A stretch of DNA of 64,000 nucleotides from Nannobrachium achirus. Lineage: Eukaryota > Chordata > Actinopteri > Myctophiformes > Myctophidae. Under the pieces are notes generated by a model. The model was not told the origin of the DNA. It saw only the letters and a list, made by a program, of their open reading frames with translations, and ran no database searches. A program made the translations under genes and the position numbers. Within the stretch, counting starts at the first letter, position 1. Each line of letters begins with the position of its first letter. The stretch lies in the NCBI GenBank assembly GCA_963921795.1, contig OY997653.1:63236714-63300713 (forward strand). Direction: 5' to 3'. Of the stretch, positions 83 to 64,000 are shown in pieces.

Positions 83-669
83 CAGGGGTTCCCAAACTTC
101 TTTGTCTCAGGGCACCCCATGAATATTTTTTTTTAATCCAAGGCACCCCTACATTATAATTTTCACTCCCAGCACCTTATATTTATAGCAATTGGTCGTT
201 GTTGGGTGGAAACCTTTTGTCCAAAACCGTTTGTCCAAAACCGTTCTTTTTGTATTTATCATCTATAAAATTAAAAACAGCAGATCTACAAGCACACAAC
301 GCCTCGCATCGCATCGCGAGGCGTTGTGTGCTTGTAGATCGGCTGTTTTCACTAGTTTTGTGCGACAGTCTTGTATGATGAAGCAGGGCTTTGCTTTACC
401 GAAAGACATACACATTTGAAACTTGGAGATAAAAGGTTTCTGCCCGACAGTGACAATATTTTAGTGATTATGTTGCGAGGAAAACATTGAGATAATAGCC
501 ATTTTGGTTATAACTGATTGAAAATAACTTTGTACTTCAAGTAAAATTATACTAAATATCTTATCAAATGTCCAAATAAATTCCAAATATTATCAAATTA
601 TCTCGCGGCACCCCTGGACTGCAGTCACGGCACCCCAGGGTGCCCCGTCACCCACTTTGAAAACCCTTG
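83..669. mobile_element. hAT-type MITE with 8-bp target duplication
   Basis: The ends read CAGGGGTTCCCAAACTT on the left and, as reverse complement, CAAGGGTTTTCAAAG on the right. They are flanked by a perfect 8-bp duplication GTTTAGAC at 75-82 and 670-677. End sequence and duplication length fit the hAT superfamily. The 587-bp body has no transposase and is non-autonomous. It carries a 76-bp palindrome at 274-349. Related end fragments lie at 42229-42265 and 56020-56056. Confidence 0.87.
274..349. repeat. Near-perfect palindrome, core type B
   Basis: The arms are 34 bp (274-307 and 316-349) around an 8-nt loop, with one mismatch near the outer end. The outer arm contains AGATCTACAAGC, shared with about 45 other hairpins in the window. 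The inner arm ACACAACGCCTCGC defines core type B. It lies inside the hAT element at 83-669. Confidence 0.92.
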
Positions 670-2865: not shown

Positions 2866-3451
2866 TTAAACCCACTTAGACTGGGTACATATTACTGCGT
2901 ATTATTATTATTTTATGCTTTAACTATTGAAAAATAGCAGATCTACAAGCTCACAGCACGGCACCGAGTGCCGCGCTGCGAGCATGTAGATCTGCTATTT
3001 TGAAAAATCGTGAAAATTTGAATTTTGAACCGACTTGGAGGACGCAATTCATACAAGTGTCTTTTGAATCCTTCTAAGGTTTTTTTGAAAAACCTATGTT
3101 TCTATGTCAGCAATCTGGCCAGCCATCGTCAAAGAAAAGGTCCTTTTCACTGAGCTCAATTAGTCTGTTCTTGAGAGTGGTTCTCAAATGTTTTCATGTG
3201 AAGGACCCCCAAAATGATATGTATTTGGCCACGGATCCCCATCTCAAAATATTTCGTTCCAGGGACCACCCAGATCGAAGCAAAATTTGAGTCACAAACG
3301 TTCGCTTTAAAAATATTCAAAGATTTGCACACATTTTCACGACTTTTTTCAAAAATAGCAGATCTACAAGCTCGTGCCGCGCTGTGAGCTTGTAGATCTG
3401 CTCTTTTTCAATAGTTAAAGCATTCAATAATCCCAGGCCTGAATGGGTTAA
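2866..3451 (+). mobile_element. Twin-hairpin TTAA MITE (piggyBac-type), long form
   Basis: It is flanked by TTAA at 2866-2869 and 3448-3451, with outer ends near ACCCACTTAGACTGGG and GGCCTGAATGGGTTAA. It carries two palindromes, 2931-3001 and 3352-3408, the second shortened at its centre. Between them lie the spacer containing CAGCAATCTGGCCAG and a hAT-like segment starting near 3178 (GTGGTTCTCAAATG). TTAA duplication and CCC/GGG ends are typical of piggyBac MITEs; no transposase is present. Confidence 0.83.
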
Positions 3452-15055: not shown

Positions 15056-15530
15056 AGCGTATTGGTGGACATTTTGACTTTAAAATGCGCCCGTGGTTTG
15101 TTAACTAACTACTGTACATACTGTACATGATGGATGGATCATAATTCAGCCCGGTGCTCCAGGTGGGTTACGTTATGGATCCAGCTTACGGTGCCTTGAG
15201 ACGCATCAACAAAAACAAATCCTCATTAGCAACAAAAAAAAACAGCTTCCCGAAACGACTTGCATTGTTTTGTTTAGTTTTTTCCTCTGAAAAGTTGAAG
15301 TTAAAAGTTAAGGATTGTTTGTTTGAGGTTCACTGGATAATGATAATAATGTATAAATGCAGAACACTGTTAACCCACTTAAAACCTAATATAGTTTGCA
15401 GTGGTGTAAGCCAGTGGTTCTCAACCTTTTCAGGCCGCGACCCACACAATAATCATATTTTAACTGGGGACCCCCCCACCCTGACGAGCACTAAGAGTTG
15501 AGGCATTACATTTTGTAGAAGACGGTTCTA

Positions 15531-15599
15531 TTGCGAAAATAGCAGATCTACATGCTCACAACGCCTCGCAACAATCATGTAGATCGGCTATTTTCGCAA
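15531..15599. repeat. Type B palindrome
   Basis: The outer arms TTGCGAAAATAGC and GCTATTTTCGCAA are perfect. The inner arm carries TCACAACGCCTCGC but the right inner arm is shortened (ACAATCATGTAGATC). Confidence 0.85.
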
Positions 15600-16063
15600 G
15601 TTCTGCCTCTATTATGACAATTTGGCCAATGTTAAAGTTGTCATTTTAGATGTAGTCCTTAAATTGTCTCTTTAGAAATGTGTAGATGCCCTCTATACCA
15701 GGGTTGTCGAACTCATTTGGGAGGGCGGACCGCATTGGATAAAAGGTGACTTGGTGTGGGCCGCATCCAGTTGCGGACGCGCATGCGTGTTCGGGTAATA
15801 ATTAAATTTCAAATAGCCACTAACTACAACTTTGCAATTGGCTGTTTTTATGCAGGCATGTGTCGGCTGTGTGCTACCAACTAGGAACTGCCGCGACGGC
15901 AGCGATGCATCGCCGGCGATAGGAGCGGCGGCCGCCGCACGGACCGGCAGTTCGACCGGCAGTCCCAGCAGAAGGACCGGCAGCCGCCGCACGGACAGGC
16001 AGGTAGGACCGGCATCACCGGTAACTGCCACGGCAGCCACCACCGCACAGACCGGCAGTTTAC

Positions 16064-16558: not shown

Positions 16559-17161
16559 TTAATCCGTTTAGGCCTAGAATTATTGAATGCTTTAACCAGT
16601 GAAAAATAGCAGATATACAAGCTCCCAGCGCGGCACCGAGTGCCGCGCTGCGAGCTTGTATATCTGCTATTTTTGAAAAAGTCATGAAAATGTGTGCAAA
16701 TTTTTGAATATATGTATTTTCAAAGCAAACGTTTAGAACTAACATTTTGCTTCTGGGTGGTCCCTGCCTGGAACTAAATATTTTGAGATGGGGGTACGTG
16801 GCCAAATAAATATAATTTTGGGGGTCCTTCAGATGAAAAGCTTTGAGAACCACTGACATAGTAGTCTCTCAAGAACAGACTAACTGAGCTCCAGTTAAGT
16901 GAAAAGGACCTTTTCTTTGACAATGGCTGGCCAGATTGCTGACATAGAAACATAGGTTTTTCAAAAAACCTTAGAAGGATTCAAAAGACACTCAAAATCG
17001 GGTAAAAATTCTAACTTTCACGATTTTTCAAAAATAGCAGATCTACAAGCTCGCAGCGCGGCACTCGGTGCCGCGCTGTGAGCTTGTATATCTGCTATTT
17101 TTCACTGGTTAAAGCATAAAATAATGATACACAAAATGTGTACCCGTTCTAAATGGGTTAA
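16559..17161 (-). mobile_element. Twin-hairpin TTAA MITE, minus orientation, full length
   Basis: TTAA flanks are at 16559-16562 and 17158-17161. The reversed ends are TTAATCCGTTTAGGCC and TCTAAATGGGTTAA. Palindromes at 16602-16674 and 17030-17102 are reverse complements of each other almost base for base: core GGCACCGAGTGCC in the first, GGCACTCGGTGCC in the second. The long-form spacer (GGCTGGCCAGATTGCTG) lies between. This is the best example of the family. Confidence 0.9.
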
Positions 17162-17364: not shown

Positions 17365-17777
17365 CAGGGGTCTTCAACGTTTTCAGGCCAAGGACCCCCT
17401 AGTTGCCAGAGAGATGAAGCAGGGACCCCCACAAGTTCACAACCTGTTCATAGATTCCATATTTAACCACTTGAACCGTCAATACTTAATAAACTTGACC
17501 TTTCACTCTGTACTTAAGTCTGCTCATTTTCTCCTCTACACCAAAGCTCTTTGCCGAAAATAGCCGATCTACAAGCTCACAACGCCTCGCAGCACGAGGC
17601 GTTGTGAGCTTGTGGATCGACTATTTTTGGCTAAAGTTCACAAAATATGGACTCTAGGGTTCAAGTGGTTGATATAAAATAGGAGAAAAAAAACTTTTTA
17701 TCACTCAAAGATTTGGAGGACCCCCAGTAGTAACTCTGAGGACCCCCTAGGAGTCCTGGACCCCCTGTTGACCCATG
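17365..17777. mobile_element. hAT-type element carrying a TTAA MITE and hairpin
   Basis: It starts CAGGGGTCTTCAACGTTTTC and has a decayed right end after GGACCCCCTGTTGA. The sister copy at 46299-46559 has the same left end and an intact right end GAAGACCCCTG. Between them is the TTAA element 17463-17672. Confidence 0.75.
17463..17672. mobile_element. TTAA MITE with central type B palindrome
   Basis: TTAACCACTTGAACC on the left is mirrored by GGTTCAAGTGGTTGA on the right (second TTAA drifted to TTGA). A palindrome occupies 17553-17632 with outer GCCGAAAATAGCC and inner CTCACAACGCCTCG. The whole 210 bp can fold on itself. Confidence 0.8.
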
Positions 17778-17809: not shown

Positions 17810-17880
17810 CAAAATAGCAGATGTACAAGCTTGCAGCGCATCACTTCGTGCCGCGCTGCGAGCTTGTACATCTGCTATTT
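17810..17880. repeat. Palindrome, solo, core type A
   Basis: AAAATAGCAGATGTACAAGC is mirrored by GCTTGTACATCTGCTATTTT. The G in ATGTAC is matched by C on the other arm, so the change is present in both arms. It lies just outside the hAT ending near 17777, with no flanking MITE. Confidence 0.88.
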
Positions 17881-22316: not shown

Positions 22317-22549
22317 ATATAGACCTTATTCACACCGCGGCCATCTTGGATCACATGGGGAGGCAGCCTGCATTACAAACCATTGTAAACAATGGAGCAT
22401 ACAAGGATTCAATTTAATTTTAGTCCTATGAAATGATTTAGTTTTAGTGTGTTTCAGTTTCAAGATTTTAGTAGAGCTTGTGACATTTTTGTACAAGCTG
22501 CTACTTTATAACACAATCTTTTCTTCAGGGGGATCGAGTTCCCCTGCAC

Positions 22550-22630
22550 AAAACAATTTCAGAAGGGGGTCCACGGCCAAACACATATCATTTTGGGGGT
22601 CCTTGGCACGAAAAGGATTGAGAACCACTG
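22550..22630 (-). mobile_element. Fragment of inner hAT-like segment
   Basis: GGGGTCCACGGCCAAACACA, CATTTTGGGGGTCCTTGGCA and GATTGAGAACCACTG are the reverse complement of the CAGTGGTTCTCAAACC segment found inside the twin-hairpin elements. No hairpin accompanies it. Confidence 0.75.
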
Positions 22631-24770: not shown

Positions 24771-25311
24771 CAGGGGCGTCGCACCAAATTCTGGGCCCTG
24801 GGTACAAGGATTCACTTTGGGGCCCCTGTGCTTTAACTATTGAAAAATAGCAGATATACAAGCTCACAGCGCGGCACCGAGTGCCGCGCTGCAAGCTTGT
24901 AGATCTGCTATTTTTGAAAAAAACATGAAAATCTTTGAATATTTCAAATCCTTCTGTTTCTATGTCAGTGGAGCTCAAACCTTTTCATGTGAAGGACCTC
25001 CAAAATGGTATGTATTTGGCCACGGACCCCCATCTCAAAATATTGAGTTCCAGGGACCACCCAGAAGCAAAATTTGAGTTACAAATGTTCGCTTAAAAAA
25101 TACATGTATTCAAAGATTTGCACACATTTTCACGACTTAGCAGATCAGCTTGTAGCAGATCTACAAGCTCACAGCGCGGCACTCGGTGCCGCGCTGTGAG
25201 CTTGTATATCTGCTATTTTTCAATAGCTAAAGTATAAACTAATGAAGGCCCCTCCACCACCTTGGGCCCTGGTAACTCAGTCCCACTTTCCTACCCCTTG
25301 TGACGCCCCTG
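24771..25311 (+). mobile_element. hAT composite with 7/8 target duplication
   Basis: The ends are CAGGGGCGTCGCACC and TGTGACGCCCCTG, flanked by CTCGTCCC (24763-24770) and TTCGTCCC (25312-25319). Palindromes lie at 24843-24915 (core CACCGAGTG) and 25155-25220 (core CACTCGGTG); the left flank of the second has a small duplicated CAGATCAGCTTGTAG piece. Short form. Confidence 0.93.
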
Positions 25312-25427
25312 TTCGTCCCCTCACCCTGATAGCAGCCAGGTTTCCATTCCATGTCACCACCCTGCCCCCCCCCCCACGTCCCCAATTAGGCCTGTCTCCT
25401 CCACGTGTTCCTCTTGGCTCCTACACT

Positions 25428-26324
25428 CAGGGGCGTCACAAGGGGTAGGAAAGTGGGACTGAGTTACCAGGGCCCAAGGTGGTGGAGGGGCCTTAATTAT
25501 TCTATACTTTAGCTATTGAAAAATAGCAGATATACAAGCTTTTTTTTGATTGATTGAAGAATTTATTAGAAGTTTGCAATAGAAAAAAGTACAGTTTCAT
25601 GACAGTACAAATCACTGGTACAAGGTCAACTAAAAGGAGATCCTAGAAAGCCGAGGCTTATTTCCACAGGAACCACACTTTAAGTATCTCATATAACATT
25701 GAAAGACAGACGGATAGAACATAGTACTTTATCTAGGATAATATCAGTTTCAAAAGCATAACATCAAATACAAAAGGCAGAATACAAAGAAAAGGGGGGG
25801 GGGGGGAGCATGGGGGCTTAGTCTATTTACAAGTCACGGGTAGCTGCTGTCTGAAGGTGACTTCAGACAGGTTTTTGAAGCTCACAGCGCAACACCGAGT
25901 GCCGCGCTGCGAGCTTGTAGATCTGCTATTTTTGAAAAGTCGTGAAAATATGTGCAAATCTTTGAATATATGTATTTTTTAAGCGAACATTTGTAACTCA
26001 AATTTAGCTTCTGGGTGGTCCCTGGAACTAAATATTTTGAGATGCGCGTCCGTGGCCAAATACATATCATTTTGGGGGTCCTTCACATGAAAAGGTTTGA
26101 GCTCCACTGACATCGTAACATAGATTTTTCAAAAAACCTTAGAAGGATTTGAAATATTCAAAGATTTTCATGATTTTTCAAAAATATCAGATCTACAAGC
26201 TCACAGCGCGGCACTCGGTGCCGCGCTGTGAGCTTGTATATCTGCTATTTTTCAATAGTTAAAGCACAGGGGCCCCGCAGTGAATCCTTGTACCCGGGGC
26301 CCAGAATTTGGTGCGACACCCCTG
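25428..26324 (-). mobile_element. hAT composite, minus orientation, 7/8 target duplication
   Basis: The ends CAGGGGCGTCACAAGG and GGTGCGACACCCCTG are flanked by CCTACACT (25420-25427) and CCTACACC (26325-26332). Its first palindrome is split by a retroposed sequence (25541-25877), leaving arms at 25519-25540 and 25883-25932. The second is at 26180-26252. It is the inverted neighbour of the copy at 24771-25311. Confidence 0.93.
25541..25877 (-). mobile_element. 5'-truncated retroposed 3' end inside hairpin
   Basis: On the minus strand it ends AATAAATTCTTCAATCAATC followed by a short A-run, a polyadenylated 3' end. It is flanked by AAGCT at 25536-25540 and 25878-25882. The 337-bp body has no coding frame. 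It is either a LINE 3'UTR or a processed mRNA tail. It landed in the palindrome's left arm. Confidence 0.75.
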
Positions 26325-28745: not shown

Positions 28746-29202
28746 TTAAGACATTCAGAACGGGTATATGGATTATTGCAAATAGCAGATCTACAAGCTC
28801 ACGCTGCAAGCTTGTAGATCTGCTATTTTTGAAAAATCGTAAACATTTGAATTTTGTCTTCTAAATCCTTCTAAGGTTTTTTTTTAAAAACACATGTTTC
28901 TACGTCAGTGGTTCTCAAACTCTTTCATGTCAAGGACCCCCTAGAATTGTACGTATTTGGCCACCGACCCCCGTCTCAAAATATTTTGTTCCAGGGACCC
29001 CCCAGAAGCAAATATTTGAGTTACAAATGTTCGCTTTTAAAAATATATATATTCAAAGACTTGCAAAAAATAAATCACGATTTTTCAAAAATAGCAGATC
29101 TACAAGCTCGCAGCGCGGCACTCGGTGCCGCGCTGTGAGCTTGTATATCTGCTATTTTTCAATAGTTAAAGCATTCAATAATTCTAGGTCTAAATTGATT
29201 AA
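28746..29202 (+). mobile_element. Twin-hairpin TTAA MITE, short form
   Basis: TTAA at 28746-28749 and 29199-29202, ends GACATTCAGAACGGG and TCTAGGTCTAAATTGATTAA. The first palindrome (28781-28828) has lost its core; the second (29086-29159) is complete. It lacks the CAGCAATCTGG spacer. Confidence 0.85.
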
Positions 29203-32347: not shown

Positions 32348-32526
32348 GCGCCAACACACGTTCAGAGGGGAAAAATATTCACGCTGGGATTCCATACTAC
32401 CAGGTTGGGAATTCTAGCCATATTTATGTTGTCTTAGTTTGCCTCAGTTAAAAGCGTCCGGCTTGTTTGTTTGGGGCAAGTAGCCCAATCACAGGCTACT
32501 GGAGTCCCACCCAAACATTTAACAGC

Positions 32527-33341: not shown

Positions 33342-33885
33342 CAGGGGTGTCACACCACATTCTGGGCCCTGGGGGTACAAGGATTCACTGTGGGTACCAT
33401 GTGCTTTAACTATTGAAAAATAGCAGATATACAAGCTCACAGCGCGGCACCGAGTGCCGCGCTGTGAGCTTGTAGATCTGCTATTTTTGAAAAATCTTGA
33501 AAATCTTTCAATATTTAAAATCCTAAGGCTTTTTGAAAAAAAAATATATATATGTCAGTGGTGCTCAAAAGTTTTCATGTGAAGGACCCCCAAAATGATA
33601 TGTATTTGGCCACGGACCCCCATCTCAAAATATTTAGTTCCAGGGACCACCCAGAAGCAAAATTTGAGTTAAAAACGTTTGCTTAAAAAAATAAATGTAT
33701 TCAAAGATTTGCACATATTTTCACGACTTTTTCAAAAATAGCAGATATACAAGCTCACACAGAGTGCCGCGCTGTGAGCTTGTATATCTGCTATTTTTCA
33801 ATAGTTAAATGGCTATAAAATAATTAAGGCCCCCTCCACCTTGGGCCCTCAGTCCCCCCCTCCCAACCCCCCAGTGACGCCCCTG
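33342..33885 (+). mobile_element. hAT composite with 7/8 target duplication
   Basis: CAGGGGTGTCACACC to AGTGACGCCCCTG, flanked by GTCACATT (33334-33341) and GTCACGTT (33886-33893). Palindromes at 33416-33488 and 33734-33798, the latter missing part of its left core. Short form of the spacer. Confidence 0.93.
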
Positions 33886-36993: not shown

Positions 36994-38478
36994 CAGAGAT
37001 GGGAAAAGTACTCACATTCTGTACTCAAGTAAAAGTACAAGTACTTGTGAAAAAAACTACTTTGGTAAAAGTAAAAGTACTCAACTAAAAACTTTACTCA
37101 AGTAAAACGTAAAAAGTACCGGATTTGAAAAGTACTTTTGAAGTAAAAGTAAAAGTATTTTACTGTATGTTTCTGTGCAAAGCCAATAGAATTTGAAGGA
37201 TATTAAATTGAAGTAGGACTGTCATCTAAGGGGTAGCCTACTGTCATTTTAAAAAGTAATCTTACAATACTAGTTAATATGTTTATGATGTCATTGTGAG
37301 AATGTGCTATAGTGTTGTAGTCGAGTCCACCTAAAGTGTCCAAGTCAAGTCCAAGTCCTAGGGGGTTCGAGTCCGTTTTGTCTTATTAAAAAAAAGGACA
37401 AATAAGACTTGGACTTGGACTATATGTAGTACAATATCCCAAATCACAGACGATAATTATCCAGTCTAATATCATGATATGGATACAAAAATAATATGAA
37501 TTAAAAAAGAATTATAGATTATAAGTCTACTACTGTAATCTATAACATTTTTAAACATTGCTGTTATAGCTGTGTCATTGTAATAAAGCTGCATGATTAT
37601 GGCAAAACTTATATTATCAAACAAAATCTTATTTTAATATTTTTTAATAAAAGCTAAAATAAATAAATAAGGTTTCCCTATTCAAACACATAGCAGTACG
37701 TGCATGTCTGCATTTCATTGTTTAAGGTGAGAAATGTACCTTATGTCATTAGTCTGATGCCTTCAAGTATATGCAAAGCAAAAAAATACCCCATGTTACT
37801 GCTTCAAGTTGTTTTGATTCGTTTTAACCTCTCTACAGAGACTTACAATGTTACACTTCTCTCTATTGATCAGTGCACTTTAAAACGTTCGGACGAGGCT
37901 AACAAGTTGTAATAGGCTACACCTGGAAAGACAAAAAGAGAAAAGACGTCAATTCTTAATCCAGCGGTACGGGTGGATTAATGATCACAAAGGCTGTGTT
38001 TGGAATTGGAAGCTGTGTAGGCCTACTGTTTAAATAAGGACTTATTTATTTGGGAACATGTCGAGGATGTCCTGCAGGCTGCAGGTAAGAGGAAAGCAGA
38101 GAGAGTTGTCTGTTGGCGAAAAAAGAACTTTTGGGAACTTGCTTGCTGCTGCTGCTGCTGCTGCTGAGCGGAGGGGCTCTGCGTGTGTGCCTGTGTGTGT
38201 GTGTGTGCGTGCGTGCGACTGTGTGTGCCTATCAGATGCGCATCAGATAATTCAGATATGCTCCGGCGCAACATTAATAGGCTATATACCATTAAAACCA
38301 AAGTAACGAGCCTGTTTTGAAAATGTAGCAGAGTAAAAGTACAGATACTTGTGTTAAAATGTAACGGATAAAAGTAAAAAGTACTCAGACAAATAACTAC
38401 TCAGTAAAGTACAAAGTACTGAAAAAAGTACTTTGTTACAGTAACAAAGTATTTGTACTTCGTTACTTCCCATCTCTG
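36994..38478. mobile_element. hAT-type element, 1.49 kb, perfect target duplication
   Basis: CAGAGATGGGAAAAGTACTC at the left and TTACTTCCCATCTCTG at the right are flanked by perfect TAACTGAG copies (36986-36993, 38479-38486). It sits inside an ACTTTTACTCAAGTA-type repeat, which resumes after it. The interior includes a (CTG)n run (38142-38165) and GT tracts but no transposase frame. Confidence 0.93.
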
Positions 38479-41919: not shown

Positions 41920-42112
41920 CAGGGGTCTGGGCCCTGGGTACTTTAACTATTGAAAAATATAGCAGATATACAAGCTCACCGTGCGGCACTCAGTGCTGTG
42001 CTGTGAGCTTGTATATCTGCTATTTTTCAATAGCTAAAGTATAAAATAGTTAAGGCCCCTCCACCTTGGGCCCTGGTAACTCAGTCCCACTTTTCCCCCT
42101 GTGACACCCCTG
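41920..42112 (+). mobile_element. Minimal hAT composite, perfect target duplication
   Basis: This 193-bp copy runs CAGGGGTCTGGGCCC to TGTGACACCCCTG with perfect CCTACGAC flanks (41912-41919, 42113-42120). It holds one palindrome (41953-42027) and only the two hAT arms. It is a deletion derivative that still moved, or shrank after moving. Confidence 0.96.
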
Positions 42113-43871: not shown

Positions 43872-44475
43872 CAGGGGCGTCACACCAAGTCCTGGGTACA
43901 AGGATTCACGGCGGGCCCCCCATGAATGTTCTTCATGGGGGGAGGGGGTTTAACCCATTTAGATTGGGAACGCATTTATTACGCATTATTTTGTGCTTTA
44001 ACTAATGACAAATAGCAGATCTACATGCGAGCTTGTAGATCTGCTATTTTTTGAAAAATTGTGAACATTTTGTGCTTGAATATTTCAAATCCTTGTAAGG
44101 TTTTTTGAAAAACCTGTGTTTCTATGTCAGTGGTGCTCAAACCTTTTCTTGTGAAGGACCCCCAAAATGAAATGTAAATTTTGGCCGCAGACCCCCATCT
44201 CAAAATATTTAGTTCCAGGGACCCCCCCAGAAGCAAAATTTGAGTTACAAATGGCTTAAGAAATACATACTGTATATTAATTTTCTGCACACATTTTCAC
44301 GACTTGTAAAAAAATTGCAGATCTGCAAGCTCACAGTGTGGCACTCGGTGCCGCGCTGTGAGCTTGTATATGTGCTATTTTTCAATAGCTAAAGTATAAA
44401 ATAATGAAGGCCCCTCCACCTTGGGCCCTAGTAACTCAGTCCCACTATGCCCCCCCCCCCCTTGTGACACCCCTG
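43872..44475 (+). mobile_element. hAT composite, full length
   Basis: CAGGGGCGTCACACC to TGTGACACCCCTG. It preserves the captured TTAA-MITE end (TTTAACCCATTTAGATTGGG at about 43949). Palindromes at 44010-44051 (core deleted) and 44309-44382 (complete). Flanking 8-mers GGTGTGTG and GGCCGAGG do not match convincingly. Confidence 0.88.
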
Positions 44476-46298: not shown

Positions 46299-46559
46299 CA
46301 GGGGTCTTCAACGTTTTCAGGCCAAGGACCCCTTAGTTGAGAGAGAGAGATGAAGCAGGGACCCCCACAACCTGTTCATAGATTCCATATAGTTTCATTG
46401 TTTGACAGCACAATCATCAGTGTATTTTGGATTCATGTCAACAATTTGTGTTTTCAGATATTTAACCACTTGAACTGTCAATGCTTAATAAACATGACCT
46501 TTCACTCTGTACTTAGTCTGCTCTTTTTCCCCTCCCGGACCCCCTGTTGAAGACCCCTG
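46299..46559. mobile_element. hAT-type MITE with 7/8 target duplication
   Basis: CAGGGGTCTTCAACGTTTTC to TGTTGAAGACCCCTG, flanked by GCATACAC (46291-46298) and GCATACAG (46560-46567). It keeps the left half of the TTAA element seen in 17365-17777 (TTTAACCACTTGAAC) but lacks its hairpin and right half. Confidence 0.92.
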
Positions 46560-47890: not shown

Positions 47891-48197
47891 GAATCAACAC
47901 TGATTTCTAAAGCATTCACCCAGGGGCGTCACTTGGGTATGGCAGGGGTATGCAGCTGCCATACCCTGTGTCCAGGGGGGAAAAGGTTACTTTTAAAAAT
48001 AAATCCATGAATGTCTCTTTGTCTATCTGAGCTGGTTATTATGTTGTTAAATTACAGTACAATAATTACAAATGCAAAGTTTAACAAAAATGGTCACTTT
48101 AACAAGGTATTATAATTATATTCTCCCCATCTTGACAGAATGGTATATTCCCAGGTTCTGCAGGTCAGCTGCACAGGTGCAATGCATTATTGTTAAT

Positions 48198-48800
48198 TAT
48201 TACCCGGCGTGTTAGAATGCTTGATTCTGATTGGTCGAGCGCTGAAATCAGAGGTCTGTTATTTCTGGATAACAGACCACTCCGCTCTATAACAGACCGC
48301 TGCCTAATCAAAGACTCAGAGCACCTGCTGCAGTCAGGCTGCACTGCGTGAACCTTGTGCTGTATCCAACATGTCAGCCATGTAAACAAACACACAGTGA
48401 CATTTACAACTAAACGTTGCTCTGAAGAATGTTTTTAAAAATATTTTAAGCGAGAAATAGACGACGTAGTATCAGAAAATGGACCTTATCTAATCAGCAC
48501 TTCCTTGTTTTCCAAGGCAACCGTGTCGCGCTGGGAGGACGCCCAGTGCAACACTTGTGGAACACTTCCAGCCGGCTGTAAACAAGGAAATACTTTGTTT
48601 TGTTTTTAGTTTTTAGTCAAATTATTAATTTGATTTAGTAGCCGGGTAATAAGCGGGATAAATACTGGCTCCTTGGGGGTTGTCCATATATAACATCCCT
48701 TCGAACTGATAACTCCCCTCGGCTGGCGCCTCGGGGAGTTATCAGTCCGTCGGGATGTTATATATGAACAACCCCCGCGGAGCCAGTATTTATCCCTTAC
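48198..48800. mobile_element. Insertion with TTATTACCCGGC ends and long hairpin
   Basis: Absent from the sister hAT, hence an insertion. TTATTACCCGGC at about 48199 pairs with GCCGGGTAATAA ending about 48652. A 142-bp hairpin unit follows before host sequence resumes at TTGTGGCACG. The exact target duplication is not clear. Confidence 0.72.
48655..48796. repeat. Long hairpin, 64-bp arms
   Basis: Arms 48655-48718 and 48733-48796 match at about 58 of 64 positions around a 14-nt loop. The outer arm reads GGGATAAATACTGGCTCC. It is unrelated in sequence to the common 70-bp palindrome. Confidence 0.93.
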
Positions 48801-49087
48801 TTGTGGCACGTTTACTAACATGCCAAGTTTAGCTGCACTTGAACAACCGTTCCAGGCTGCCATATCCAGAAACCGTAGAAAACCGGGGAAAAAAACTGAC
48901 AAACCCCATTTTTTTTCTCGCCCACAGGACTCCCATCTTTGCCATACCCTCGCTTTTGCTGAACTGACGCCACTGCATTCACCCAAACAACCTGGGAACA
49001 CATTTGGCGGTAATTATAAGCACACACAAGCCTTGCACTTACACACACACAAGATTAGATTGCATCTATGCTATGCATGTATGATGC

Positions 49088-52033: not shown

Positions 52034-52907
52034 TGAAGTTATTTGCATTGCTTAAATATTTATTAAAAACCACGGACAGACTTAAGGCCTGTCCATACTT
52101 TGACCGAAACCGCAGTTTTTGGTCAAAAGGTCATTTTCTACCATAGAATTATATCCCTCGGGACTTCTGAAAAGCATTGGACCGAACGAGAGTTCAGAAA
52201 TTTGCACGTCGGAAAACACAACTCACCGAACATTTCGGTCGAAGTATGGAGAGGCCTTTAATCACTTTCAATCTGGTGTACCTACTGTAAATCGGGATTC
52301 TAATTGTATAGAGAAAAATCTTTTCAAAACGCCTGAATGGGTTAAATACTTTTATAACTTTTATAATTTTATAATAATTCTGTGGTCTGACAACATTTGA
52401 ATACATACTGTTTACTGCTTATTCACCTACTTCCTGTTTGTTGGTCTACTTCCTGTGTACAAGGTCTTCCCTTCGCCAGCGGTGTATGAATGAATGAATG
52501 TGTGTGAATGGAATGCACATTGTAAAGCACCTTGTATAAAAGCTCTGTATAAATGCACCATTTACCATTGATATGTATCCCGTGAATGCATTTTATTTTC
52601 TCTAAGTTTTTCTTTCTTTATCAAGGATCTGGCAACAAATGTAGACTATACTGTACAACGTATGCTTCCATTTACAACACGTGTATAGAAACACTTTGCT
52701 GTGGCTTTCTGCTTTCTGCCATCGGCCTGAATCGCATCGTTGTAGCAAATATTCATGTTCAAGGCTACTATACCATATGCTTTATTTTAATTTTTATCAA
52801 TCAAGTATGTGGTGGCAAAAACATTTTTTCGTAAATTAACTTATTTGACTGATTAATTTCGATTAATTAATTTGCAGAAAATTAACACAATAAAAAAATA
52901 TGATCAT
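52034..52907. other. Gene-free stretch
   Basis: Apart from a short dispersed-repeat fragment (about 52480-52567, GTAAAGCACCTTGTATAAAA) nothing is recognised. Open frames at 52119 and 52586 resemble no known protein. Confidence 0.5.
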
Positions 52908-53292
52908 CCTTTTCAGGCTGTGACCTGCAAAATAATCATATTTTAACTGGAGACCCCCCCCCCCCACACACACACACACCCTGAGCACTAAGAGTTGAAG
53001 CATTACATTTTGTACAACACGGTTCAATAGAATAATAGCGTTGTGAAGCGTTGTTGTGTGCATGTAGATCTGCTATTTTCACCATTTCTGCCTCTAATAT
53101 TTGACAATTTGGCCCATGTTTACTTTGTCCTTTTAAAGATAGCCTATTAAAAAGTCCTTAATTGTCACTTTAGAAACGTGCACATACTCTCATACACTTA
53201 AACTGTATGTTGGTTTGTTTACTGTTGAACCCGGCCCCAAAATAATGTGGGGACCCCCCTGGGGGTCCCGACCCACAGGTTGAGAACCAGTG
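52908..53292. mobile_element. hAT-type element with hairpin, relative of 15412
   Basis: Shared with 15412-15700: ATAATCATATTTTAACTGG, GAGCACTAAGAGTTGA and the palindrome position. The right end GGTTGAGAACCAGTG is intact; the left terminus is lost. The palindrome (53031-53080) is reduced to its right arm. Confidence 0.78.
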
Positions 53293-56820: not shown

Positions 56821-57799
56821 TTAACCCTCTAAGGCCCACGGTTGTAATATTACAACGTTTGTATTTTATCCAAAAAAAGGTTTAAATCATTTTATTTTAG
56901 CTCCCCCTACCACCTAAACACCACCATTGGATTCTATTGTTTAGTATTACAATGCCATTGGCCACAATATTTGCATATAAATACCCCCCACAGGGGCTGA
57001 CATTCACACCCGCCACACCCGCTGAAATTCCAGAGTTTTGACGAACAACATCTCACTTTTTCATGGAAGCTATACCTCACAAAAACATAAGTAAAATGCC
57101 TGTACTATTTTTTTTGGTGATCATTAGAATGTCTAGAACATGTACATATGTTATTATTGTGAAAAATATCCCCCATATGTAAATTAGAGCATGATTTATG
57201 GCTATAAAATCTTACAAAAACATTTTTTTGAAAAAAACATTACATTTTCCTCTGATTAAGACTCCTACAACACCATCTGATTTTTTTCAATTTTTTATTT
57301 CAAGTATTTCTTAACTCATCTGCCGCCTTACACGTTTATAAACGTTCTATTTTGCCCAGCTATCTACCGCCTCACACGTTACTGTACGTTCTACCATTTT
57401 TGGCCACTGGGGGTCACTGTTCACTAATATATGAGACAGCAATGGGTTCACTGCTCTTTGGGCAGCCTGTGATGCTGATAAAAAAATATAAAAATGTTAT
57501 TCATGTAATCAGCTTTCTGCACACCTTCTTCAAGATGGCTGCCAAAATGGCCACCATCCACATGCTGTAATTGTTTGTGTGTGTTAATCTAAAAATAGAT
57601 TTTTCTTGGGGTTTATTATATGTTTCTGCCAACTGCAAGGGGGCAATGGACATCTTCTGAGAGCTTATTTTTTTTCAAAAAATGTTTATTTATTTTTTTA
57701 TTTTCAATTTTTTTTTTTGTAAAAAGCCGGGCAGTACTAAGATAGATTTCTTTTTAACCCTTGGCAGGCATTGTGTTAATGCGGGCCTTAGAGGGTTAA
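56821..57799. mobile_element. TTAA MITE (reverse of 30199), interrupted
   Basis: TTAACCCTCTAAGGCCC at 56821 and GGGCCTTAGAGGGTTAA ending at 57799. It is the 30199-30726 element in reverse complement with high identity, split by a second TTAA element (57311-57779). Confidence 0.93.
57311..57779. mobile_element. TTAA MITE nested in TTAA MITE
   Basis: TTAACTCATCTGCCGCC at the left and GGCAGGCATTGTGTTAA at the right with TTAA flanks. The uninterrupted sister at 30199-30726 has the single target GCATTAAGAAAT at about 30217, so the insertion and its TTAA duplication are directly demonstrated. Confidence 0.95.
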
Positions 57800-58221
57800 C
57801 CCATTTTGCATTTAATTTAACCCATTTCCCCCCCCCCCTGTGTGAACTTGATTGATGGCTACCGTCATTGTCACACTGTTTACAGTAAAGGTATCGTGCA
57901 CTTTGGGGTTTGTTTTCTCTCCGTGCGCTCGCAACACACATACATGTCTGAGGGTGAGTGGCTTGAGAGCTCACACTGTAAATAGGCCTACCCTATTATC
58001 CCAGTTTGTATCCTGCACCGTGTTTGTTGTGGTTGATGGAAGTCAAATGAATAATTCAACTTAGGAGAGCAGACATTGATATGGAGATCTAATGAACAAG
58101 CTACAGATGTCTGTCAAAAAGACACATTGAAAGTCAAGGGACCAAGGGTTGCCCGATAGCTGAGTGGAAGGTAACACTGTAAGGCCGAATTAATTTCTAC
58201 TTCAACTTCTACTTAAAAAAA

Positions 58222-58400
58222 TCAACCTTTCAGATGGTGTTGTAGGAGTCCCATTCAGAGGAAACATTTATGTTTTTTTTTAGTTTTTTTTTGTAAGGTT
58301 TTATAGCCATAAATCATGCTCTAATTTACATTTTGGGGATATTTTTCATAATAATAACATATTATGTACGTACAGGAGTTGTGACATTTGGGACAGGAAT
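58222..58400. mobile_element. Fragment of the 30199 TTAA family
   Basis: TCAGATGGTGTTGTAGGAGT, ATAGCCATAAATCATGCTCT and ATTTTTCATAATAATAACAT match the left half of 30199-30726. Ends are missing. Confidence 0.85.
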
Positions 58401-63530: not shown

Positions 63531-64000
63531 CAGGGGTGTCACTCCAAACGCTGGGCCCTGGGTACGAGGATTCACTGTGGGCCCCCCGTGAATGTTCTTC
63601 ATAGGGGGAGGAGGGGGTTTAACCCATTTAGACTGGGAACGCATTATTGTGTGCTTTAACTATTGAAAAATAGCAGATATACAAGCTCACAGCGCGGCAC
63701 CGAGTGCCGCGCTGCGAGCTTGTATATCTGCTATTTTTGAAAAATCTTGAAATTCTTGAAAAAACCTTGAAAAAATTCCTGAAAAAACCTACTGTATGTT
63801 TCTATGTCAGTGGTGCTCAAACCTTATCATGTGAAGGACCACCAAAATGATATGTATTTGACCACGGACCCCCATCTCAAAATATTTAGTTCCAGGGACC
63901 CCCCCAGAAGCAAAATTTAAATGTTCGCTTAAAAAATACATATATTCAAAGATTTGCACACATTTTCACGACATTTATAGCAGATCTACAAGCTCACAGC
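63531..64000 (+). mobile_element. hAT composite, runs off the window end
   Basis: CAGGGGTGTCACTCC start, with the captured TTAA-MITE end intact (TTTAACCCATTTAGACTGGG at about 63619). First palindrome 63666-63737 complete; the second begins at about 63977 and is cut by the window end. Confidence 0.9.

Follow-up and report, generated by a model that had tools for sequence, protein, structure and literature searches.

The window, that is, the whole stretch of 64,000 nucleotides that was analyzed, contains a TTAA-ended element (T), one copy of which (copy A) carries a palindrome of 73 bp in each of two long inverted arms. The features of copy A are as follows:

16559..17161, + strand: copy A of the TTAA element; of the five TTAA copies, no other has both hairpins at full length; TTAA at 16559-16562 (left) and 17158-17161 (right)
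16579..16680, + strand: left long inverted arm, 102 nt, 96%, holding the left palindrome
16602..16674, + strand: left palindrome, 35-nt arms 97% complementary, loop CGA
16760..16855, - strand: reversed hAT-like end inside T, with CAGTGGTTCTCAAA... and GGACCCCC motifs; inner limit approximate
17024..17125, - strand: right long inverted arm, 102 nt, 96%, holding the right palindrome
17030..17102, - strand: right palindrome, the mirror copy, 94% complementary, loop TCG on the + strand

A preliminary description of this DNA had reported a TTAA-ended element with a palindrome in each long inverted repeat, and this was borne out with exact coordinates and 102-nt arms at 96%. Folded as DNA, the left and right hairpins reached -39.7 and -39.1 kcal/mol against shuffle means of -9.2 and -10.6, with z of -16 and -13, respectively, and 0 of 200 shuffles as stable in either case. 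The fold of the whole of copy A reached -161.9 against a shuffle mean of -62.1 (z -22, 20 shuffles). The large foldback that had been proposed for it was obtained as the single-strand minimum-energy fold, far beyond the shuffles, and two separate cruciforms would be the alternative conformation.

Near-perfect 35-bp hairpins of this kind could also belong to the gene of a structured RNA, for instance a microRNA precursor, that had been copied to several places. Some matches below threshold but with small E-values point the same way, among them MIR2600 (48.3 bits, cut-off 98) and, at 16595-16672, a flavivirus CRE family (39.4, cut-off 41). However, no Rfam family matched at or above its gathering score in the 64 kb, and the sub-threshold matches of the set with MIR2600 fall on both strands and to many unrelated families, as they would for any long hairpin. 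An RNA gene is thus regarded as highly improbable.

The interior of T finishes in a reversed CAGTGGTTCTCAAA with GGACCCCC motifs, and T therefore holds hAT material. The tip of this reversed end is located 181 bp from the left hairpin, and the hairpin may have arrived in T together with the captured hAT end. Outside T, a free hAT-like end resembling the captured one lies at 22400-22630, and a short palindrome seen there by eye (AGTAGCAGCTTGT..ACAAGCTCTACT) might be related to the hairpin in a decayed form. Within T, a segment of about 78 bp (16861-16939) is bordered by direct repeats CTGACATAG; copies A and B contain it, C has part of it, and it is missing from the remaining 11 of the 14 aligned copies.

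BLAST of copy A against the window gave many matches, and 14 copies were aligned. Besides copy A, the TTAA copies are:

2866..3451, - strand: copy C, left hairpin shortened; right end GGGTTTAA
19106..19627, - strand: copy B, right hairpin lost
28746..29202, - strand: copy E; its right hairpin is shortened and its right end has eroded to ATGTCTTAA
45424..~45871, + strand: copy P, shortened in the left hairpin and degenerate at the right end

The ends of copies C, E, and P were set by eye. Five TTAA-bounded copies had been counted before; A, B, C, and E have TTAA at both ends, but the right end of P is degenerate. Likewise, the double-hairpin layout ascribed to all five is found with two full-length hairpins in A, whereas B, C, E, and P have each lost or shortened one. 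In the other nine of the 14 aligned copies, hAT-type sequence (H3) occurs on at least one side, which the preliminary description does not mention.

The TTAA-type ends of T read TTAACCCATTTAG, with CCCATT following TTAA in the better ends. The TTAA target agrees with the proposed piggyBac affiliation of T, as piggyBac targets TTAA according to the available text of PMC2874221. Its CCCA tip does not match CC[C/T]T, which the accessible part of PMC2872659 gives as the hallmark of piggyBac terminal repeats and where one piggyBac-like element with CCCATT is also listed. No transposase was found in the 18 of 42 listed open frames of the window that were scanned, and one unrelated match stayed below its cut-off.

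The left and right hairpins had further been described as mutual reverse complements whose variants swap accordingly. Two copies of a palindrome are almost automatically reverse complements of each other because a palindrome is its own reverse complement, and mirroring has to be judged from the loop and from two positions at which the arms are asymmetric. The loop reads CGA from outside to inside in 14 of 16 examined T/H3 hairpins (8 of 8 right, 6 of 8 left). In a survey of 28 listed hairpins, five of which have one arm only, 15 of the 23 with both arms readable had an A on the outside and a C on the inside at the first asymmetric arm base; C/C, A/A, and A/T followed with four, three, and one, respectively. 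The loop and this base therefore mirror in most hairpins, in line with the described arrangement. The counts of A/C versus C/C are weakly suggestive of arm correction inside T/H3, as C/C may be ancestral, and CpG decay can account for the changes seen at the second asymmetric site.

H3 is itself a hAT element. Its outer sequence, identified in nine copies, has CAGGGGYGTCAC... at one side and ...GTGACRCCCCTG or similar variants at the other. When hAT-like ends accompanied by an 8-bp target site duplication (TSD) were scanned for, the window gave 11 pairs and three control trials with displaced TSD gave 0. Hairpins are enclosed by four of the 11 pairs (83-669, 24771-25311, 25428-26324, and 33342-33885), which have two to three mismatches in 14 in their terminal inverted repeats; 41920-42112 lies above that limit. 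The H3 elements are:

24771..25311, - strand: H3 hAT composite with T interior and two hairpins; 8-bp TSD, 1 mismatch
25428..26324, + strand: H3 hAT composite; 8-bp TSD, 1 mismatch
33342..33885, - strand: H3 hAT composite, two hairpins; 8-bp TSD, 1 mismatch
41920..42112, - strand: H3 derivative with one hairpin; perfect 8-bp TSD CCTACGAC, detected by eye and missed by the scan
43872..44475, - strand: copy L, an H3 element retaining the right TTAA end of T inside; no 8-bp TSD seen
63531..64000, - strand: copy N, an H3 element truncated at the window end; it too retains the T right end

In copies L and N, the right end of T (GGGTTAA) is still present and the sequence after it continues into the H3 end common to other copies, which indicates that T sat inside H3. 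The remaining H3 copies may later have lost the ends of T. By eye, no 8-bp TSD was found at several other H3 copies. With their 8-bp TSD and CAGGGG/CAGTGG ends, H3 and the element at 83-669 (H4) resemble MITEs of the hAT superfamily. A Helitron reading was dropped since TTAA or 8-bp duplications and inverted ends exist. The two H3 composites at 24771-26324 stand back to back in opposite orientation, which gives inverted repeats of 197, 151, and 113 nt.

Beyond T and H3, the palindrome occurs in other lineages of the window. A 25-base arm gave 79 matches at 18/25 or more in the window and 1, 0, and 0 in three mononucleotide shuffles. A covariance model (R1), built from 18 hairpins and run on the 64-kb window, found 36 loci at E up to 0.1, with 29 belonging to the T/H3 lineage and seven to others (273, 13505, 15535, 17556, 17810, 32513, and 43349; weakest E 0.09). 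Recognizable elements around such hairpins are:

83..669, + strand: H4 hAT element, perfect TSD GTTTAGAC; hairpin at 274-349, core different yet palindromic
15412..15698, + strand: H1 hAT-like repeat, partly deleted hairpin at 15536-15594; one end recognized
17365..17750, + strand: H2 hAT-like element, hairpin at 17557-17627; exact at the left end, eroded at the right, where the limit is approximate
52904..53292, - strand: second H1 copy, half hairpin at 53029-53079; one end recognized

H1 and H2 have one recognizable end per copy, and a complete end pair with TSD is absent from them. In the hairpins of H4 (274-349) and H2 (17557-17627), the inner stem reads ACGCCTCGC in place of GCGCGGCAC, with pairing kept. 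The palindrome is thus not specific to the TTAA MITE. The double-hairpin layout had been presented as a property of one TTAA MITE family; this is not borne out in that form, as the same interior is found in H3 and the palindrome by itself in further hAT or hAT-like elements. An alternative reading, a single family of ordinary TTAA MITEs with long arms, would take the hAT ends as the result of accidental nesting and the remaining hairpins as its decayed fragments; it would fit the fact that T and H3 are clearly one lineage with 29 of the 36 loci. We nevertheless consider it improbable, since H4, H2, and H1 differ in the inner stem, which is still palindromic in H4 and H2, their flanks are mostly unrelated, and H4 has its own perfect TSD.

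Alignments between lineages were compared by segment in nine pairs, in which T was represented by two copies. The hairpins aligned with z of 7.6-30.1 in the nine pairs, whereas the stretch between the hAT tip region and the hairpin gave z of -0.8 to 1.5 in eight of nine, with 3.5 for H4 versus T copy A, and the far side of the hairpin stayed at z of 1.4 or below in all nine. The hAT tips were related to a varying degree (z 1.5-9.6). This suggests that the hairpin is a module common to several transposon families.

The distance from the hairpin to the hAT-like end is 191 bp in H4, 192 bp in H2, and 213 bp in the H1 copy at 53055, and it ranges between 177 and 181 bp in T copies A, B, and E and in H3 copy D. 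The H1 copy at 15536 lies 124 bp from its recognized end and locus 3847 lies 247 bp from a weak end. The pattern used for hAT ends matched 35 times in the window versus seven in one shuffle; this pattern, which excluded H3-type ends, gave no hAT-like end within 500 bp of nine solo hairpin or arm loci. As an argument, the similarity of distances is limited because four cases carry it.

A conserved hairpin between mostly unrelated flanks would also be expected if the palindrome were its own mobile element, a minimal hairpin MITE that inserted repeatedly into unrelated transposons and was then carried along. Several solo or half hairpins without a recognized host element are compatible with this, as are possible short direct repeats seen by eye, GTTCT at 15536 and AAAGCTC/AAAGTTC at 17557. 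A consistent target duplication is lacking, however, with none seen by eye at 274-349, the hAT-end distance is similar in four cases, and a clean empty site is absent; the H2 relative at 46299-46559 also lacks the hairpin flanks and looks like a deletion. A separately mobile hairpin is therefore rather unlikely. The relative in question is a short hairpin-less hAT MITE of the H2 family with TSD GCATACAC/GCATACAG (1 mismatch) and is apparently an internal-deletion relative of the element at 17365. The pair 17365 and 46299 was considered as a clean hairpin-less H2 site and rejected, as the missing part is larger than the hairpin.

Differences between the arms of different lineages are mirrored in excess of expectation. 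T and H4 differ at seven positions of the left and eight of the right arm, with six mirrored where 0.55 were expected; T and H2 differ at six and nine with five mirrored (0.53 expected), and H4 and H2 at three and five with two mirrored (0.15 expected). Four mirrored inner-stem positions may represent one event. Against the hairpin at 17811, T showed 0 or 1 mirrored out of two to five differences, and the hairpin at 41955, which had been excerpted one base out of register, was excluded from the mirrored-pair statistics. In an alignment of 18 chosen hairpins (15 distinct), the majority of rows coming from one lineage, two-sided changes were found at nine of 35 pairs, compared to 3.5 in shuffles, of which 1 in 500 was as high, and 0-2 in slides. 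Pairing cells in this alignment amounted to 92.3% versus 89.0% in shuffles, and the covariation score was 0.101 versus 0.047; hairpins C_R, J_L, G_L, D_R, and F_L, shortened hairpins, and weak covariance loci were left out of it. Further mirrored changes lie outside this alignment: at 15536 both arms went from CAAG to CATG, and at 32513 both went from GCTC to GCCC. In 16 T/H3 hairpins, 0 of 40 recent substitutions were mirrored; 14 of the 40 are due to an indel in a single copy and to the replacement of the tip in a second one. Mirroring is therefore either slow or takes place in the source copies.

Conserved arms, mirrored differences between lineages, and a similar position could alternatively reflect a functional cis-element of hAT elements, which binds transposase or a host factor or serves as a structure for transposition, and which is kept by selection for pairing. 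By analogy, end-proximal palindromes are bound by the piggyBac and piggyBat transposases, as described in the available text of PMC11707139, but these palindromes measure 14-19 bp and not 70. Broken hairpins in many of the copies here and hairpin-less hAT-like elements with TSD in the window (46299-46559, 47921-48975) also speak against such a function, which is possible but doubtful. The probabilities attached to these explanations overlap with each other and with that of the composite reading set out below, as the readings are not exclusive.

Within the 64-kb window, which forms its sole basis, the arrangement is read with slightly better than even confidence as a nested non-autonomous composite around a palindromic module of about 70 bp that also lives in hAT elements. 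The palindrome would already have been present within hAT-type elements, in several of them about 180-210 bp from one end. The TTAA-target element T would then have come to carry the palindrome along with part of a hAT end, and inverted duplication of this end may have produced the two mirrored hairpins of T. The spread of T presumably relied on a TTAA-specific transposase supplied in trans. One of its copies would have landed in another hAT element, H3, and a hAT transposase would subsequently have multiplied the composite. Changes in one arm would reach the other and so preserve complementarity over long times, by arm-to-arm copying at an extruded or replicating hairpin, by selection for the hairpin, or by both. 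The composite reading is weakened by the lack of mirrored recent substitutions in T/H3, the value of 0 or 1 at 17811, the several H3 copies without TSD, the incomplete ends of H1 and H2, and the nine solo loci that lack a nearby end of the scanned pattern. More tentatively, the palindrome might be a self-contained module that passes between the hAT and TTAA-type superfamilies, with arm copying arm so that the sequence drifts and the hairpin persists, although we would not expect this to be the case.

If true, a non-coding palindrome would be the conserved common part of otherwise unrelated DNA transposons, which are usually pictured with ends that are conserved and interiors that vary. Mirrored differences of this kind would offer a testable case for long-term arm-to-arm correction of palindromes, and the nesting a readable record of the birth of a composite element and its later mobilization by a second transposase.

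The absence of a named family with the double-hairpin layout, as stated before, agrees with the literature searched (papers rather than Repbase or Dfam), in which none was found. A full-text literature search for short strings of T returned unrelated titles only, and exact patterns of the hairpin and the T interior had zero matches in viral contigs and prokaryote genomes, as expected for a eukaryotic repeat. Angel and the internal inverted repeats of Tol2 represent a palindromic teleost element located inside a hAT element. The present palindrome within hAT elements may be comparable in this general respect, and the Angel or Tol2 internal repeats were not found in the literature searched. Possession of a common palindrome of 70 bp in which changes are mirrored is not known as a feature of hAT elements.

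The nearest case in the literature searched, judged by the available text of PMC2872659, are the CMITE families of Acropora corals. They share with T the TTAA target duplication, have a conserved 75-base interior common to families with different terminal repeats, and include a new element that arose through MITE insertion (PMC2872659, same text). In that text, CMITEs are TTAA-flanked and about 100 bp long, whereas here the shared region is a palindrome and occurs in a TTAA element as well as in hAT elements; the words "palindrom" and "hairpin" are absent from the main text of PMC2872659. The piggyBac and piggyBat elements resemble T in their palindromes near the ends (accessible part of PMC11707139) and piggyBac in its TTAA (accessible part of PMC2874221), but their bound palindromes of 14-19 bp (PMC11707139) differ from the 73-bp ones that T has in mirrored arms together with a CCCA tip.

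Other repeats were observed in the window, which looks fish-like in its CA repeats and in the types of repeat present. The hAT-like element at 47921-48975 has a perfect 8-bp TSD (CATTCACC) and no copy of the shared hairpin; inside it, another long palindrome with 69-nt arms at 88% and a loop of 4 lies at 48655-48796. A foldback-like structure at 57146-58362 has arms of 75 nt (95%) separated by 1067 nt. At 36994-38478, a perfect 8-bp repeat (TAACTGAG) flanks a 1485-bp stretch with CAGAGATGGGAA ends, which is probably another hAT element.
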